A stretch of DNA of 64,000 nt, from contig NZ_AWXZ01000035.1 of the NCBI RefSeq assembly GCF_000496075.1, positions 124,001 through 188,000 on the forward strand. Direction: 5' to 3'. The first letter of the stretch is position 1. Each line of letters opens with the position of its first letter. The translations under genes were made by a program, and so were the position numbers. Under the pieces are notes generated by a model. It had not been told where the DNA came from. It did no database searches and saw only the letters and a program-made list of their open reading frames with translations. Below are positions 47,147 through 55,390 of this stretch, piece by piece. Source of the DNA: Lutibaculum baratangense AMV1 (GTDB taxonomy: Bacteria; Pseudomonadota; Alphaproteobacteria; Rhizobiales; Tepidamorphaceae).

Positions 47147-48253
47147 TCAGGCGGCCACGGGACCCGCGGCCACTACGACCCGGTCGCGACCGCCGTGCTT
47201 GGCCTCGTAGAGCGCCTCGTCCGCGGCCCGCAGCATGTCGTCGACCTCCGGCAGCGGCGTGGAGAAGCACGCCACGCCTCCGCTGGCGGTCATCGAGAAC
47301 GCCGCGCTGCCATATTCGACCCGGGCGCCGCGCAGCGCCTCCATCACCCCGTCGGCGAGACGGCAGGCCTCGGGCAGGTCGTGGTCCGGCAGCAGGATCG
47401 CGAACTCCTCGCCGCCGATCCGGGCGACCGTCTGCCGCTCTGCCGCGTGGCGCCCGAGAATGCCCCCGAAGACACGCAGCGCCTCGTCGCCTGCGGCATG
47501 GCCGTAGCGGTCGTTGATCTTCTTGAAGTCGTCGAGGTCGAGGAAGATCATCGCGACCGACCGCTCCGCGCCCCCCGGCCCCGAGCGGGCCCGGATCAGC
47601 TCCTGCTCGAAGTCCCGCCGGTTCGATAGGCCGGTCAGCGAATCCCGCAGCGCCGCCTGCTCGAGCCGGCGCTCCGCGTCGATCAGGCGGCGCTCGCGCT
47701 CGACGAGCGTGCCGAGGACGACGGCGCCCGCGACGGAGACGAGGAGGAGCAGCGGGTAGACCGTGGCGATCATCTGCGCGGCCACGTGCGGCCCGATGAT
47801 CCAGGCGACGAGGAACTGCTGCGAGATCACGAACCCGCCGATCGCCATCTGGTGGAAGCGCGGCCGGCCGGCGGCAACGCTGAACCGCATCCAGGCCCAG
47901 CCGAGCAGGGCCGCGAGGAAGATCCCGATCGTGCCGGGAAATGCGCCGGGGCCGCCGATCTGGAAGTAGCGGAACAGGGCGGCGACCACGGCGGCGACGA
48001 GCCCGGCGAGCGGCCCGCCATAGGCCGCCCCGAGGCCGACGATGACGGAGCGGCCGTCGATGACCACCTGATCCATCACGATGACCGGGGTCAACATCGC
48101 GACGACGGCGACGAAGCCGAACATGAGGCCGGCGGCGAGGGAGCGGCTCCAGCCGGGCAGCCGCGAGCGCTCGAGCGTCCCGAATGTCAGCGCGAGCAGG
48201 GCCATCAGCCCGGCCGAGCCGGCCAGCGAGGCCAGGATCTGGAGCGGGCTCAT
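47147..48253 (-). CDS. membrane-bound diguanylate cyclase (5TM plus GGDEF)
   Basis: A 368-aa protein. Residues 1-185 form five to six transmembrane helices of the 5TMR_LYT-like sensor type (LGAAYGGPLAGLVAAVVAAL, GAFPGTIGIFLAALLGWAWM). A short coiled linker (ERRLIDAERRLEQAALRDSL) leads to a full GGDEF domain with active site ARIGGEEFAILLP, the substrate-binding NRRDFEQEL start and DLDDFKKINDRYGH. It should make cyclic di-GMP. ATG 48253 is chosen for its strong GGGGAGGGGG site; an ATG at 48316 would add 21 residues. Directly downstream, on the same strand, of the solute-binding/TRIC fusion gene. Confidence 0.88.
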   Translation of the reverse strand: MSPLQILASLAGSAGLMALLALTFGTLERSRLPGWSRSLAAGLMFGFVAVVAMLTPVIVMDQVVIDGRSVIVGLGAAYGGPLAGLVAAVVAALFRYFQIGGPGAFPGTIGIFLAALLGWAWMRFSVAAGRPRFHQMAIGGFVISQQFLVAWIIGPHVAAQMIATVYPLLLLVSVAGAVVLGTLVERERRLIDAERRLEQAALRDSLTGLSNRRDFEQELIRARSGPGGAERSVAMIFLDLDDFKKINDRYGHAAGDEALRVFGGILGRHAAERQTVARIGGEEFAILLPDHDLPEACRLADGVMEALRGARVEYGSAAFSMTASGGVACFSTPLPEVDDMLRAADEALYEAKHGGRDRVVVAAGPVAA

Positions 48254-48413
48254 GTCCCCCTCCCCGACGACGTCGTCTGCATTGCCCCCACCCGAGCTGA
48301 CCCTAGCGTCAGTCATGCGCCAGGATGCCTTTGGATGGGGTTAATCCGATCGCACACGAATGGTTGCCGGGTTGGCCGAACGGCGTAGCGAGCCCGCCCC
48401 CGCGTCCGCTTCT

Positions 48414-50138
48414 TCAGGCCTCCACCGCCCTCCGCTGGCCGAAGCGGTGCGAGCGCAGGCCCAGCACGATCACCGCGCCGCGAGCGCAGAACACGAGGAC
48501 GAGCGTCGTCACGACCGCGGCGGTCGCTATTCCCGGCTGCTGCTCGAAGGCGTCGGCGACCTGCAGGGCGAGGAGCAGGAAGATCCCGCCCATGATCGCG
48601 ACCTCCTCGTAGGGCTCGCCCTGGAAGGTGCGCGGCTCCCGGCCCATGATGACGTCTGACAGCATGCCGCCGCCCGCGCAGGTCAGCGCGCAGCAGATCG
48701 GGATCCAGATCCACGTGAGCCCCGCCATCAGCGCGACCTTCGCGCCGACGATGCAGAAGGCGGCGAAGCCCAGCGTGTCGAGGAACTTCATCGTCCGGTC
48801 GAACCGGCGTGTCGAGATCATCCGCTCCGGGATGACCGCCGCTGAGGCGACGCCCGCGAGGAAGGTCGCGAGCACGATGTACATGTGGACGGGGTCCTGG
48901 ATGATGAAGGGCGGGTAGCGATCGCCGCCGACGAGAAGGTCGCGGATGGTGCCGCCGCCGCCGGCTGGCAGGAGAGTGAGGACGAAGGCGCCCCACAGGT
49001 CGTAGTTGCGCTGCTGCGCCCGCATGAAGCCCGCGAAGCCGAACACGACGGCTCCGATGACGGTGAGGGCGTAGAACCAGCCGGAGTTCAGCGTCTCGGC
49101 GAGGTAGTGGCGGGTCGCCCGCGACAGCGTCAGGAGGCTCTCGCCCTCGAGCCCCGATTCGTAGCGCAGCCGGTGTGTCCACGCGTTCACCGCCGCCTGG
49201 CGCACGACGAAGGCCTCGTCCGGCCTGCCGGCGATGATGTCGACCGAGGTCTCGAAGTCGCCGATATCCATGAGAGCGGTCTCGCCGGGCCCGCCGATCA
49301 TCCTGAGGATGGTCTCGAGCATCCGCCGCTGGTGGACGGGATCGAGGCCCGGCGCCTCGGCCATGGTGATGAACATCGCCTCGTCGACGTTCCGGCCGGC
49401 GTAGGCCCAGCCCTCGGCGGTCGCCTTCAGGAAGCGGGCGAGCCTGTCGCGCCGCTCGGGGTCGGCGAGGGCCTCCTCGAGGACGTAGAGCCCGTCTTCG
49501 AGGATGCCGAGGCCGTGATCGGCGAGGCGCACGACCATGAGCTCGCTCGGCGACAGGCCGGCGGCGAGGATCGACCAGTATTCGTTGTAGGCCATCGCGG
49601 TGACGCAGTCGGCCTCGCCGGAGACGAGGTCGGCACCGTTCTCGCTCTGGACGCCGATCGAGACGTCGCCCATCGACAGGCCGAGGCTCTCGAGCCACGC
49701 CTGCACGCTCAGCTCGTCGCCGATATACCAGACGCCGAGGCGCTTTCCGGCCACGTCGCGCGGCTCGGCGATACCGGCGTCGCGGCGGCAGACGATGGAG
49801 GTGCCTCCCGTCCTGAGGATCTGTCCGATATTGACGACGTTCCAGCCGCGCCGCCGCGCGTCTATGGCAGCCGGCAGCCAGGACAGCGCCACGTCCGCCC
49901 GTCCGCTGGCCACGGATTGCAGCGCGTTGAAGCCGAGCATCCCCTCGATCGTCTCGACGTCGAGGCCTTCACGCTCGTAGAAGCCCTTCGCCTGGGCGAC
50001 GTAGATGCCCGCGAACTGCGCCTGGTGGTGCCAGAGGAGCTGCACGCGCACCGTCTCCGCGTGTCCGGGCGCCAGCCCGAAGAAGACGAGGAGCCCGAGC
50101 GCCAGGCCGAGAAGCTTCAGGGCATATCGGTGCGGCAT
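48414..50138 (-). CDS. NMT1-type solute-binding domain fused to a TRIC/UPF0126 channel domain
   Basis: A 574-aa chimera in one frame. Residues 1-27 are a signal peptide or anchor. Residues 28 to about 345 form an NMT1/THI5-like periplasmic binding protein: VRVQLLWHHQAQFAGIYVAQ, GFYEREGLDVETIEG, LQSVASGRADVALSWLPA. Residues 353-562 carry about seven transmembrane helices of the TRIC/UPF0126 family, with the two internal repeats each marked by a glycine motif: AGGGGTIRDLLVGG (392-405) and CAGGGMLSDVIMGR (487-500). TRIC proteins are cation channels; the E. coli relative YicG moves glycine. No ABC permease or ATPase lies nearby, so the receptor probably acts on its own channel domain. A diguanylate cyclase gene follows. 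Domain calls are firm; gating is inference. Confidence 0.87.
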   Translation of the reverse strand: MPHRYALKLLGLALGLLVFFGLAPGHAETVRVQLLWHHQAQFAGIYVAQAKGFYEREGLDVETIEGMLGFNALQSVASGRADVALSWLPAAIDARRRGWNVVNIGQILRTGGTSIVCRRDAGIAEPRDVAGKRLGVWYIGDELSVQAWLESLGLSMGDVSIGVQSENGADLVSGEADCVTAMAYNEYWSILAAGLSPSELMVVRLADHGLGILEDGLYVLEEALADPERRDRLARFLKATAEGWAYAGRNVDEAMFITMAEAPGLDPVHQRRMLETILRMIGGPGETALMDIGDFETSVDIIAGRPDEAFVVRQAAVNAWTHRLRYESGLEGESLLTLSRATRHYLAETLNSGWFYALTVIGAVVFGFAGFMRAQQRNYDLWGAFVLTLLPAGGGGTIRDLLVGGDRYPPFIIQDPVHMYIVLATFLAGVASAAVIPERMISTRRFDRTMKFLDTLGFAAFCIVGAKVALMAGLTWIWIPICCALTCAGGGMLSDVIMGREPRTFQGEPYEEVAIMGGIFLLLALQVADAFEQQPGIATAAVVTTLVLVFCARGAVIVLGLRSHRFGQRRAVEA

Positions 50139-53104: not shown

Positions 53105-55390
53105 TCAATCCGCGCCCTTCACGGGCATCAGCGCGTCCGGCCGCGGGCGGAAGACGCGCTGGATGAAGTACATCGCCGCGGCGAGCAGGATGCCCGAGAG
53201 GTCGGTGGCGAGGCCGCCCTCGATCATCAGGAGCGCGGCCGCGAGCAGGCCGGCCCGGATGAACCAGGCCGCGGCGAGGCCGAGGAACCAGCCCTGCACC
53301 GCGCAGGAGAGCAGGAAGACCCCGACCACCGCCGTCAGCGTCGCGCGGATGATCGCGATCCACTCGGCGTCCATAAGGAGCGCGCCGTTGTAGAAGAACA
53401 TGAACGGCACGATGAAGGCGGCGAGGCCCATCTTGAACGACGTGACGGAGGTCTCCATCGCCTTGGCGCCGGATATGCCGGCCGCCGCGTAGCTCGCCAG
53501 CGCCACGGGCGGCGTGATCGCCGAGACGACGGCGAAATAGAAGACGAAGAAATGCGCCGTCAGGACCGGCACGCCGAGATTGACGAGGCCCGGCGCCACC
53601 ACGGCGGCGGCGACCGCGTAGGCGGCCGTCGTCGGCATGCCCATCCCGAGCAGGATCGAGATGCACATGGCGAAGAACATGGCGAGGAGCTGCGAGGCGG
53701 CGGCGATCCCGAGAAGGAGGTTCGAGAAGCGCGAGCCGACACCCGTCAGCGAGATCACGCCGACGATGATGCCAGCGCAGGCGCAGACCGCGATGATCTG
53801 GATCGACATGACGCCGGCGAGCTCGAACGCCTTGACGATGGCGCGCGGGCCCATCCGGAAGGGCGTGAGCCAGCTCACGACCGCCGCCGAGATCGTCGCC
53901 AGCGTGCCCGCGCGGATCACCGAATAGCCCATGAAGAGGGCCGCGATCAGGATGATGATCGGGATGAAGAGGTAGACTTGGCGGATGAGTCTCGAGAATT
54001 TCGGGATCTCGTCCTCGCGCATGCCGCGCATGCCGCGCTTGGCCGCCTCGAGGTCGACCATGAAGTAGACCGAGACGAAATAGAGGATCGCCGGGATGAT
54101 CGCGGCGATCGCGATCTCCTGGTAGGGAATGCCCGTCACCTCGGCCATGATGAACGCGCCGGCGCCCATGATCGGCGGCATGATCTGGCCGCCCGTCGAG
54201 GCGGCCGCCTCGACCGCGCCGGCGCTCCTGGCGGGATAGCCGAGACGCTTCATCAGCGGGATGGTGAGAGACCCGGTCGCGACGACGTTGCCGGCCGAGG
54301 TGCCGTTGATCATGCCCATCAGGCCTGAGGCGAAGATCGCGACCTTGGCGGGCCCGCCGCGTGCGCGGCCGGCGGCGGCGAAGGCGAAGTTCACGAAATA
54401 GTCGCCCACCTTCGAGGCCTGCAGGAAGGCCGCGAAGATAATGAAGAGGATGATGTAGGTGGAAGAAACCGCAGTGGTCGGCCCCAGGATGCCGGCATCT
54501 GTGTAGATCTGGCTGAAGAACCGCGCCCAGTTGATCGGCGGCGAGTTCAGGAAGCCCGGCAGATACTGGCCGGTGAAGACGTAGATCAGGAACAAGGCCG
54601 CGATCACCACGAGAGCGAGCCCCGCGACGCGCCGCGTGAGCTCCATGATGAGCAGCGTGCCGGCGATCGCGGCGAGCGAGATGCCGATGGGCGCGAAGGG
54701 CGTGCCCGTCGAATTGCGCATCAGCGTGCCGTAGATGGTGATCAGGTAGGCCGCGACCGCGAAGCCGCAGACGGCGAGCACGAGGTCGGGAACGGAGAAC
54801 CAGGTTCGCGGCCCGCGCTCCATCCAGCCGAGCACGATGCCGCCCACGGTGGCGGCGATCAGCGGCACGCCGTAGAGCCAGATCTCGTTGAAGCGGATCG
54901 CGGGGTCCATCCCGCTCCACATCGCGCCGCCCCGGATCTGCGATCCGAACCAGAGCGCCACGCCGAACGACCAGAGGGCGACGAGGAAGAGCGCCGCGCC
55001 CACGAGGTTGACCGGCTTCGTGGTGCGGCGTTCGTCGTCGTCGAACCGGCTGGCCGAGTAGAGGAGGAAGCCGAGAAGGAGGGCGCCGGCGATGTGGACG
55101 ATGCGGAAGTTCCACGTCTCCATCGGCAGGCGCGGCAGGAACGGCAGGTTGATCGCGCCGCCGGTCATGTTGCGGATCGACAGGCCGTTCAGCGCCGCTA
55201 TGTGGAAGAAGGCGTAGACGGCGGCGATGGCGGCGACCACGGCGAAGGCCCGGCCTTCGAACATTCGCCTGTTGGCTTCGACCGGCTCGTCATCGACCCC
55301 CTGGGCCACGACGACATCCACCTCGTCCTCGACGCGCGCGCCGGACGGCTTCTGCGGCTCCACCGCCATAGCTTTCCCCATGATCCCCAT
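53105..55390 (-). CDS. TRAP transporter fused permease, TAXI type
   Basis: A 761-aa protein joining small (DctQ-like, residues 35-230) and large (DctM-like, 230-700) TRAP subunits, as usual for TAXI systems. Characteristic stretches are GLMGMINGTSAGNVVATGSL and GGQIMPPIMGAGAFIMAEVT, with more than 15 membrane segments. A C-terminal tail of further helices (DUF3394-like) ends in RPRPDALMPVKGAD. ATG 55390 follows AAGGCGGC. Separated from its receptor gene by a 10-bp GC stem. Confidence 0.92.
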   Translation of the reverse strand: MGIMGKAMAVEPQKPSGARVEDEVDVVVAQGVDDEPVEANRRMFEGRAFAVVAAIAAVYAFFHIAALNGLSIRNMTGGAINLPFLPRLPMETWNFRIVHIAGALLLGFLLYSASRFDDDERRTTKPVNLVGAALFLVALWSFGVALWFGSQIRGGAMWSGMDPAIRFNEIWLYGVPLIAATVGGIVLGWMERGPRTWFSVPDLVLAVCGFAVAAYLITIYGTLMRNSTGTPFAPIGISLAAIAGTLLIMELTRRVAGLALVVIAALFLIYVFTGQYLPGFLNSPPINWARFFSQIYTDAGILGPTTAVSSTYIILFIIFAAFLQASKVGDYFVNFAFAAAGRARGGPAKVAIFASGLMGMINGTSAGNVVATGSLTIPLMKRLGYPARSAGAVEAAASTGGQIMPPIMGAGAFIMAEVTGIPYQEIAIAAIIPAILYFVSVYFMVDLEAAKRGMRGMREDEIPKFSRLIRQVYLFIPIIILIAALFMGYSVIRAGTLATISAAVVSWLTPFRMGPRAIVKAFELAGVMSIQIIAVCACAGIIVGVISLTGVGSRFSNLLLGIAAASQLLAMFFAMCISILLGMGMPTTAAYAVAAAVVAPGLVNLGVPVLTAHFFVFYFAVVSAITPPVALASYAAAGISGAKAMETSVTSFKMGLAAFIVPFMFFYNGALLMDAEWIAIIRATLTAVVGVFLLSCAVQGWFLGLAAAWFIRAGLLAAALLMIEGGLATDLSGILLAAAMYFIQRVFRPRPDALMPVKGAD

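Follow-up and report, generated by a model that had tools for sequence, protein, structure and literature searches.

The window analysed here, a stretch of 64,000 nucleotides of Lutibaculum baratangense AMV1 DNA taken as a whole, contains on its reverse strand a single open frame (48414-50138, ATG start at 50138) for a protein of 574 aa, in which a solute-binding protein (SBP) is followed by a TRIC channel domain. A gene for a 5TM-5TMR_LYT/GGDEF protein lies on the same strand, 97 bp downstream. The features of the locus are as follows, with residue numbers referring to the fusion protein.

48414..50138, reverse strand: SBP-TRIC fusion gene (open frame, 574 codons plus stop; homologues)
50058..50138, reverse strand: signal peptide, residues 1-27 (recognized by eye from a basic start, a hydrophobic core and the cleavage region GHA-E; model helix 3-20)
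49164..50057, reverse strand: NMT1/THI5-type solute-binding domain, residues 28-325 (PF09084, E 2.7e-37; Z 31.6 to 3ix1)
49083..49163, reverse strand: connector, residues 326-352 (T342-F355 ungapped in 7/7 NMT1-type fusions)
48417..49082, reverse strand: TRIC channel domain, seven helices, residues 353-574 (PF03458 in two stretches; Z 26.7 to 5wue)
48951..48959, reverse strand: first GGG kink motif, residues 394-396, TM2 (alignment)
48705..48713, reverse strand: W476-x-W478, TM4-TM5 loop and start of TM5 (extracellular by inferred topology)
48666..48674, reverse strand: second GGG kink motif, residues 489-491, TM5 (alignment)
47147..48316, reverse strand: downstream gene, 5TM-5TMR_LYT plus GGDEF, diguanylate cyclase (Pfam; neighbour comparison)

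The fusion gene and its surroundings

Pfam analysis of the fusion protein identified NMT1 (PF09084) at residues 40-254, covering profile positions 2-216 of 216, and Gly_transporter (PF03458, the TRIC/UPF0126 family) in two stretches with an E value of 6e-24. An AlphaFold2 monomer model was obtained with a mean pLDDT of 93.5 and a pTM of 0.88. Residues 26-325 of this model matched the Bacillus FAMP-binding protein 3ix1 (292 residues aligned, 3.0 A) and, as second-best match, the thiamin-bound protein 4nmy (Z 30.5), while residues 353-574 matched the TRIC channel 5wue (203 residues aligned, 2.4 A). The SBP is thus a whole two-lobed domain (Pfam and the 3ix1 match) led by a signal peptide recognized by eye, and the second half has the marks of the TRIC family, namely two Gly_transporter repeats, seven helices, the TRIC fold and GGG kinks in TM2 and TM5. 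These results bear out the initial annotation, which had described a signal peptide, a whole SBP and a whole TRIC domain with both glycine-rich repeats in one frame. An alternative upstream in-frame GTG would give a protein of 648 aa; the ATG at 50138 looks, by eye, to give a normal signal peptide.

Two findings had been named in advance as speaking against a genuine fusion, separate translation of the two halves and an assembly error. Third-position G+C was 0.93 to 0.96 across the SBP, the connector and the TRIC part alike. No ATG, GTG or TTG codon occurs in frame within codons 318-364, the first TRIC helix beginning at 353, and separate translation of the TRIC half from an internal start is therefore unlikely; some possibility is kept by GTG codons 312 and 317, which lie in frame within the end of the SBP. 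Assembly error was rejected since the same design is present in seven genomes, those of the window, L009, L010, L005, L030, L074 and L075, the six homologues sharing the domain order and including named alpha- and betaproteobacterial records.

The GGDEF gene is possibly co-transcribed with the fusion. The surroundings of the window gene were compared with those of 22 other loci, one of them the locus of a stand-alone member (L066), using frames of at least 90 aa and blastp at 1e-8, with several loci ending at contig ends. Among these 23 loci the GGDEF gene was not seen beside any other fusion, and no neighbour family was common to more than three loci, frames overlapping the fusion excepted. 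The only widely shared family was the fusion itself; all remaining sets were fusion-overlapping frames or genes present in two or three loci. As the window's GGDEF gene was not widely shared, we regard it as a local neighbour. Visual inspection of the listed frames between 44 and 55 kb revealed none of the ABC permease and ATPase genes that would be expected near an NMT1/THI5 protein, in agreement with the earlier statement that ABC partners were absent nearby, and the 23-locus comparison gave no neighbour common to more than three loci that could be such a partner. Searching the whole window with Rfam at gathering thresholds revealed two tRNAs only, and no thiamine or FMN riboswitch upstream of the fusion; a PHROGs search at 0.001 gave no match that would point to phage origin. 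The fusion is an additional TRIC in this genome, which also encodes an ordinary one (L003, 215-aa frame). A long frame at 53105-55390 on the reverse strand resembles, by eye, a fused TRAP-type transporter membrane protein.

Homologues and two receptor types on one TRIC clade

The six homologues with the domain order of the window fusion are 36-53% identical to it. Near full-length matches came from a Bradyrhizobiaceae MAG (L009, 53%), Polynucleobacter (L010, 37%) and a member of the window's own family (L005, 36%); further NMT1-type fusions come from another family of the window's class (L030) and from genomes of the Polynucleobacter family (L074 and L075). In the latter family 3/200 genomes carry the fusion, that of L010 included. 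Five of the eight genomes of the window's family matched at E <= 1e-20, two with the fusion (the window's and G006) and three with a free SBP. A search of the phylum at 1e-40 gave 4/398 matching genomes, none beyond those already found, and in the class of Polynucleobacter 1/369 genomes matched, namely the Polynucleobacter genome itself; as the searches used profiles or queries from fused members and large genomes were scored for some candidates only, such counts can miss free clade members and distant fusions. Matches occurred in 329 plasmid records; a single place spanning 80% of the query was seen in none of them.

When the connector and TRIC domain of the window protein were used as query, 6/397 genomes of the order matched at E <= 1e-25. 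These were the NMT1 fusions of the window and L005, three fusions with an SBP_bac_3 domain (L025, L027, L028), and L026 (1516-3003, reverse strand), an SBP-TRIC whose divergent SBP-like region has no Pfam name. SBP_bac_3 is the amino-acid-receptor type of SBP, related to the ligand-binding domain of ionotropic glutamate receptors. With a TRIC profile (A2) made from eight TRIC domains, 22 places in 17/385 genomes were found across the class (E <= 1e-42), and inspection assigned 20 of these to SBP fusions (2 NMT1, 18 SBP_bac_3) and two to stand-alone proteins (L043, L045). Since fused members had served to make this profile, the counts are a poor guide to the frequency of free clade members.

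Pfam analysis of 28 frames gave Gly_transporter in 28, SBP_bac_3 in 21, NMT1 in 5 and Lig_chan-Glu_bd, the form of the domain found in glutamate receptors, in 2, the last below the cut-off (best L027, 28.8 bits vs 30). By elimination, L026 and L043 are the frames with no named SBP. L043, a frame of 708 aa, was considered as an SBP fusion and rejected, its N-terminal part not being an SBP, and was placed in the stand-alone group. Two copies are adjacent in G506, G554 and G609 and further apart in G677 and G745. The side-by-side SBP_bac_3-TRIC pairs are represented by L062 and L063 (G609, G506) and by L061 (G554); the G506 pair is of note for the small size of its genome, a single contig of 1.4 Mb.

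NCBIfam profiles run on seven SBP-TRIC proteins gave only partial matches to either half, all below cut-offs, and no curated name for the fusion. The statement of the initial annotation that no protein of this design had been described holds in part: none of the literature matches listed has an SBP-TRIC protein as its subject, but the 2011 TRIC family review by Silverio and Saier reportedly mentions domains fused to the N- or C-terminus of prokaryotic members.

The tree built from 43 TRIC domains split the SBP-TRICs as a clade from 11 ordinary TRICs at 100/99. Within it the SBP_bac_3 type grouped at 99/97, and the seven NMT1-type rows at 82/95, which is not full support. Three members with no SBP in the chain (L092, L045, L043) are nested in the SBP_bac_3 group. 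Among SBP-less clade members, L104 (5667-6533), L105 (6587-7336) and L043 grouped together in the tree, and a BLAST search with the fusions, covering 13 kb around L104 and L105, gave no sign of a free SBP gene near either. The SBP tree, from which L012 was omitted as near-identical to L013, united all seven fused rows at only 66/47. Both trees gave the same two pairings, the window protein with L009 and L005 with L010, L074 and L075, indicating that the SBP and TRIC halves travel together. Alignment A8 omits L043; the structure alignment A7 has 42 rows and omits, among others, L020, L021, L022, L040, L045, L047, L049, L050, L073, L078, L079, L081, L082, L085 and L092. Our reading of these trees is that one TRIC lineage may have acquired a receptor and then exchanged it, or may have acquired two.

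Receptor, connector and pore residues

Thirty-eight SBP residues are invariant over the seven fused and eight free SBPs compared, and the receptor pockets look functional from their sequences. The three free SBP relatives examined, which are among the nearest free SBPs, are all encoded on plasmids and each adjoins ABC permease and ATPase genes. In Klebsiella and Sinorhizobium a dihydropyrimidinase gene lies within 6 kb, Klebsiella also having preA, and the Azospirillum SBP has phenylacetate genes nearby. Like these proteins and ThiY (3ix1), the fusion has a whole NMT1/THI5 SBP domain; it differs from them by the TRIC domain in its chain and by having no ABC genes seen beside it by eye. From the 3ix1 and 4nmy matches and the surroundings of the free relatives, we predict a pyrimidine-like ligand for the window protein, either a thiamine precursor, thiamine or a pyrimidine base.

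The Arg of the motif GATxTxxR and an Asp of the second lobe, which we take to contact the carboxylate and the amine of the ligand in amino-acid SBPs, were each found in 21/22 rows of the SBP_bac_3 group. A model of L027 (pLDDT 86.5, pTM 0.78) had amino-acid SBPs as its best structural matches. The predicted ligand of this sister type is an alpha-amino acid. The SBP region of L026 lacks the amino-acid-type Arg and Asp; it is perhaps a receptor whose ligand has been lost or changed. Inspection by eye also revealed a frame with NMT1, a second SBP and a PAS region (L017, 5938 onward) and one with NMT1, a TM segment and GGDEF (L018, 5929-7533).

Between receptor and pore, T342-F355 showed no gap in any of the seven NMT1-type rows. 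The preceding stretch, 322-341, is 20 residues long in six rows and 43 in L030. For the SBP_bac_3 group, the last 12 residues before the TM1 tryptophan were likewise ungapped in 22/22 rows. A connector of fixed length suggests that the two domains may be mechanically coupled.

According to the SaTRIC report (PMC5477506), this channel conducts K+, GGG motifs kink its TM2 and TM5, F20 and F106 cover constrictions, D99, R139, D140 and Y155 form a cytoplasmic lock, and the helix between TM2 and TM3 is placed outside. Because that helix is outside, the N-terminus of TRIC should also be outside, and so should the SBP. The equivalents in the window protein are G394-396 and G489-491 for the kinks, F366 and F461 for the phenylalanines, and D454, S494, D495 and Y510 for the lock. 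Over the 29 SBP-fused rows the central kink glycines are invariant (G395 and G490, 29/29 each) while the outer ones vary (G394 in 25, G396 in 28, G489 in 27, G491 in 23), and the lock residues D454 (29/29), D495 (28/29) and Y510 (28/29) are kept. The R139 position, Ser in the window protein, is Arg in 4/7 NMT1-type and 22/22 SBP_bac_3-group rows. The pore phenylalanine F461 is replaced by Leu in 4/7 NMT1-type rows; the column of the first, F366, was left out of the conservation counts. The N144 equivalent is G499 in the window protein, and Asn occurs here in only 3/11 ordinary rows. In the extracellular lock, the acidic residue contributed by TM1 corresponds to T359; this position is non-acidic in 6/7 NMT1-type rows, but D or E in 18/22 SBP_bac_3-group rows and 6/11 ordinary TRICs.

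The prokaryotic TRICs SaTRIC, CpTRIC, SsTRIC and RsTRIC (PF03458) resemble the fusion in fold (Z 22.5 to 26.7), in their seven helices and two GGG kinks and in the Asp-Asp-Tyr part of the lock, but they are stand-alone proteins, prokaryotic homologues being described in PMC5477506 as about 210 residues long, whereas the fusion has a 350-residue receptor part before TM1. W478 and E512 set the SBP-TRICs apart as a separate clade, being found in 32/32 clade rows and in 0/11 ordinary TRICs. By the inferred topology W478 would lie at the extracellular mouth, on the side of the SBP, and E512, two residues past the lock tyrosine Y510, on the cytoplasmic side. W478 may serve in docking or in gating.

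A proposed receptor-gated channel and its alternatives

The best explanation of the window protein, which we hold at somewhat less than even confidence, is a receptor-gated TRIC channel. Sequence and model agree on a signal-peptide-led SBP of the pyrimidine/thiamine-precursor fold family that is joined by a short fixed segment to the extracellular end of TM1 in a complete TRIC domain. The protein would form an inner-membrane trimer with one pore per subunit. Binding of a small ligand would close the two SBP lobes, and this movement would travel by way of the pre-TM1 helix (residues 340-350) into TM1 and the three-helix bundle on the extracellular side, altering how often the pore, a cation pore of the K+ type in which the cytoplasmic lock residues D454, D495 and Y510 are kept, is open. 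A sensed ligand might in this way be converted straight to ion flow or membrane potential, with no ABC or kinase partner.

Coupling is argued from the anatomy of the protein, and gating is preferred over delivery because receptor chemistry has been exchanged on one pore lineage; such exchange would fit a modular gate better than a single pore by which each ligand is delivered. The same design in seven NMT1-type proteins and its SBP_bac_3 version in 21/28 frames favour gating. Against it, L043, L045 and L092 belong to the clade with no SBP in the chain, from which it appears that the channel part can persist alone. Several residue changes also count against it: the varying outer kink glycines, S494 in place of the lock Arg and G499 in place of N144 in the window protein, and, among NMT1-type rows, Leu for F461 in 4/7 and the non-acidic TM1 position in 6/7. 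The receptor-channel chimera proposed initially is upheld in its anatomy, conservation, topology and fixed connector, while gating itself stays at the level of a model. Slightly more tentatively than for the window protein, we propose that the SBP-TRICs are independently evolved bacterial ligand-gated cation channels that combine one pore lineage and one connector geometry with pyrimidine-type and amino-acid-type (glutamate-receptor-like) receptors.

The comparison with ionotropic glutamate receptors made in the initial annotation gains from the SBP_bac_3 domain of the sister proteins, but the architectures differ. Like the fusion, those receptors, including bacterial GluR0, combine in one chain a cation pore with an outside domain resembling a binding protein. 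In them a pore of the K+-channel type is inserted into the second lobe, whereas in the fusion the TRIC pore, which is unrelated, comes after the SBP. SBP-fused sensor kinases and cyclases, BvgS being a kinase of this kind and L017 and L018 further examples, also carry the SBP as a sensory ectodomain on TM helices, but their output is a signalling enzyme and that of the fusion a pore. Prokaryotic Cys-loop channels with an N-terminal periplasmic binding domain, as described in PMC549065, are a precedent for bacterial receptor-channel fusions, although they differ in having a PBP-I fold and a pentameric pore with its own ligand-binding domain.

The main rival, ranked next after the gated channel and in our view less likely than it, is a receptor-fed facilitator. 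Here a solute in short supply would be bound by the SBP and then carried, itself or in the form of an analogue, over the inner membrane by the TRIC domain, much like in a one-piece SBP-dependent secondary transporter. The Pfam name of PF03458, "Glycine transporter", counts for it and against gating, and amino acids, to which the conserved Arg and Asp of the SBP_bac_3 rows point, would suit that name. The three free SBP relatives adjoining ABC importer genes are a further point in its favour, and Silverio and Saier are said to have read prokaryotic TRICs as carriers in 2011. However, measurements on the prokaryotic SaTRIC showed a K+ channel (PMC5477506). Facilitation would require a TRIC lineage with mostly kept kink and lock residues to change its substrate alongside each change of SBP, and a hand-over of solute has no obvious need for a connector of fixed length.

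We consider improbable a nutrient-controlled efflux or leak valve, with TRIC releasing a metabolite or an ion and the SBP opening or closing it as an outside feedback sensor of the same compound. Such a valve would be consistent with a connector of fixed length and with receptors having been exchanged, and the 2011 TRIC review reportedly contains an efflux proposal for prokaryotic TRICs, but no metabolic gene is widely shared in the neighbourhoods of the 23 loci. More doubtful again is a sensor with no flux, in which TRIC would be a membrane anchor and the signal would go to another protein, for instance the product of the downstream GGDEF gene. The closeness and common strand of that gene would suit such a role, as would the use of related SBPs as sensor domains in L017 and L018; yet no neighbour, the GGDEF gene included, is widely common among the 23 loci, and an anchor would not need the kink and lock residues that are mostly kept. 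Hardly any weight falls on an artefact, whether an assembly error, a half already excluded by the homologues, or two products out of one long frame in a G+C-rich genome: chance long frames are frequent in this DNA, one such frame also being present at L043, and a TRIC product could in principle start at GTG codons 312 or 317, but the same-order fusion recurs in seven genomes with a fixed connector, codon bias is continuous throughout and codons 318-364 are startless.

Animal TRICs are counter-ion channels, and both their gating and the roles of bacterial TRICs are poorly known, so that a natural receptor-TRIC chimera offers a direct handle on TRIC gating, the two receptor types permitting domain-swap tests. 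If the ligand is carried instead, some TRICs would be transporters. If the receptor-gated channel proposed here is correct, the SBP-TRICs would be a further receptor-operated channel drawn from the same binding-protein stock as the glutamate receptors.
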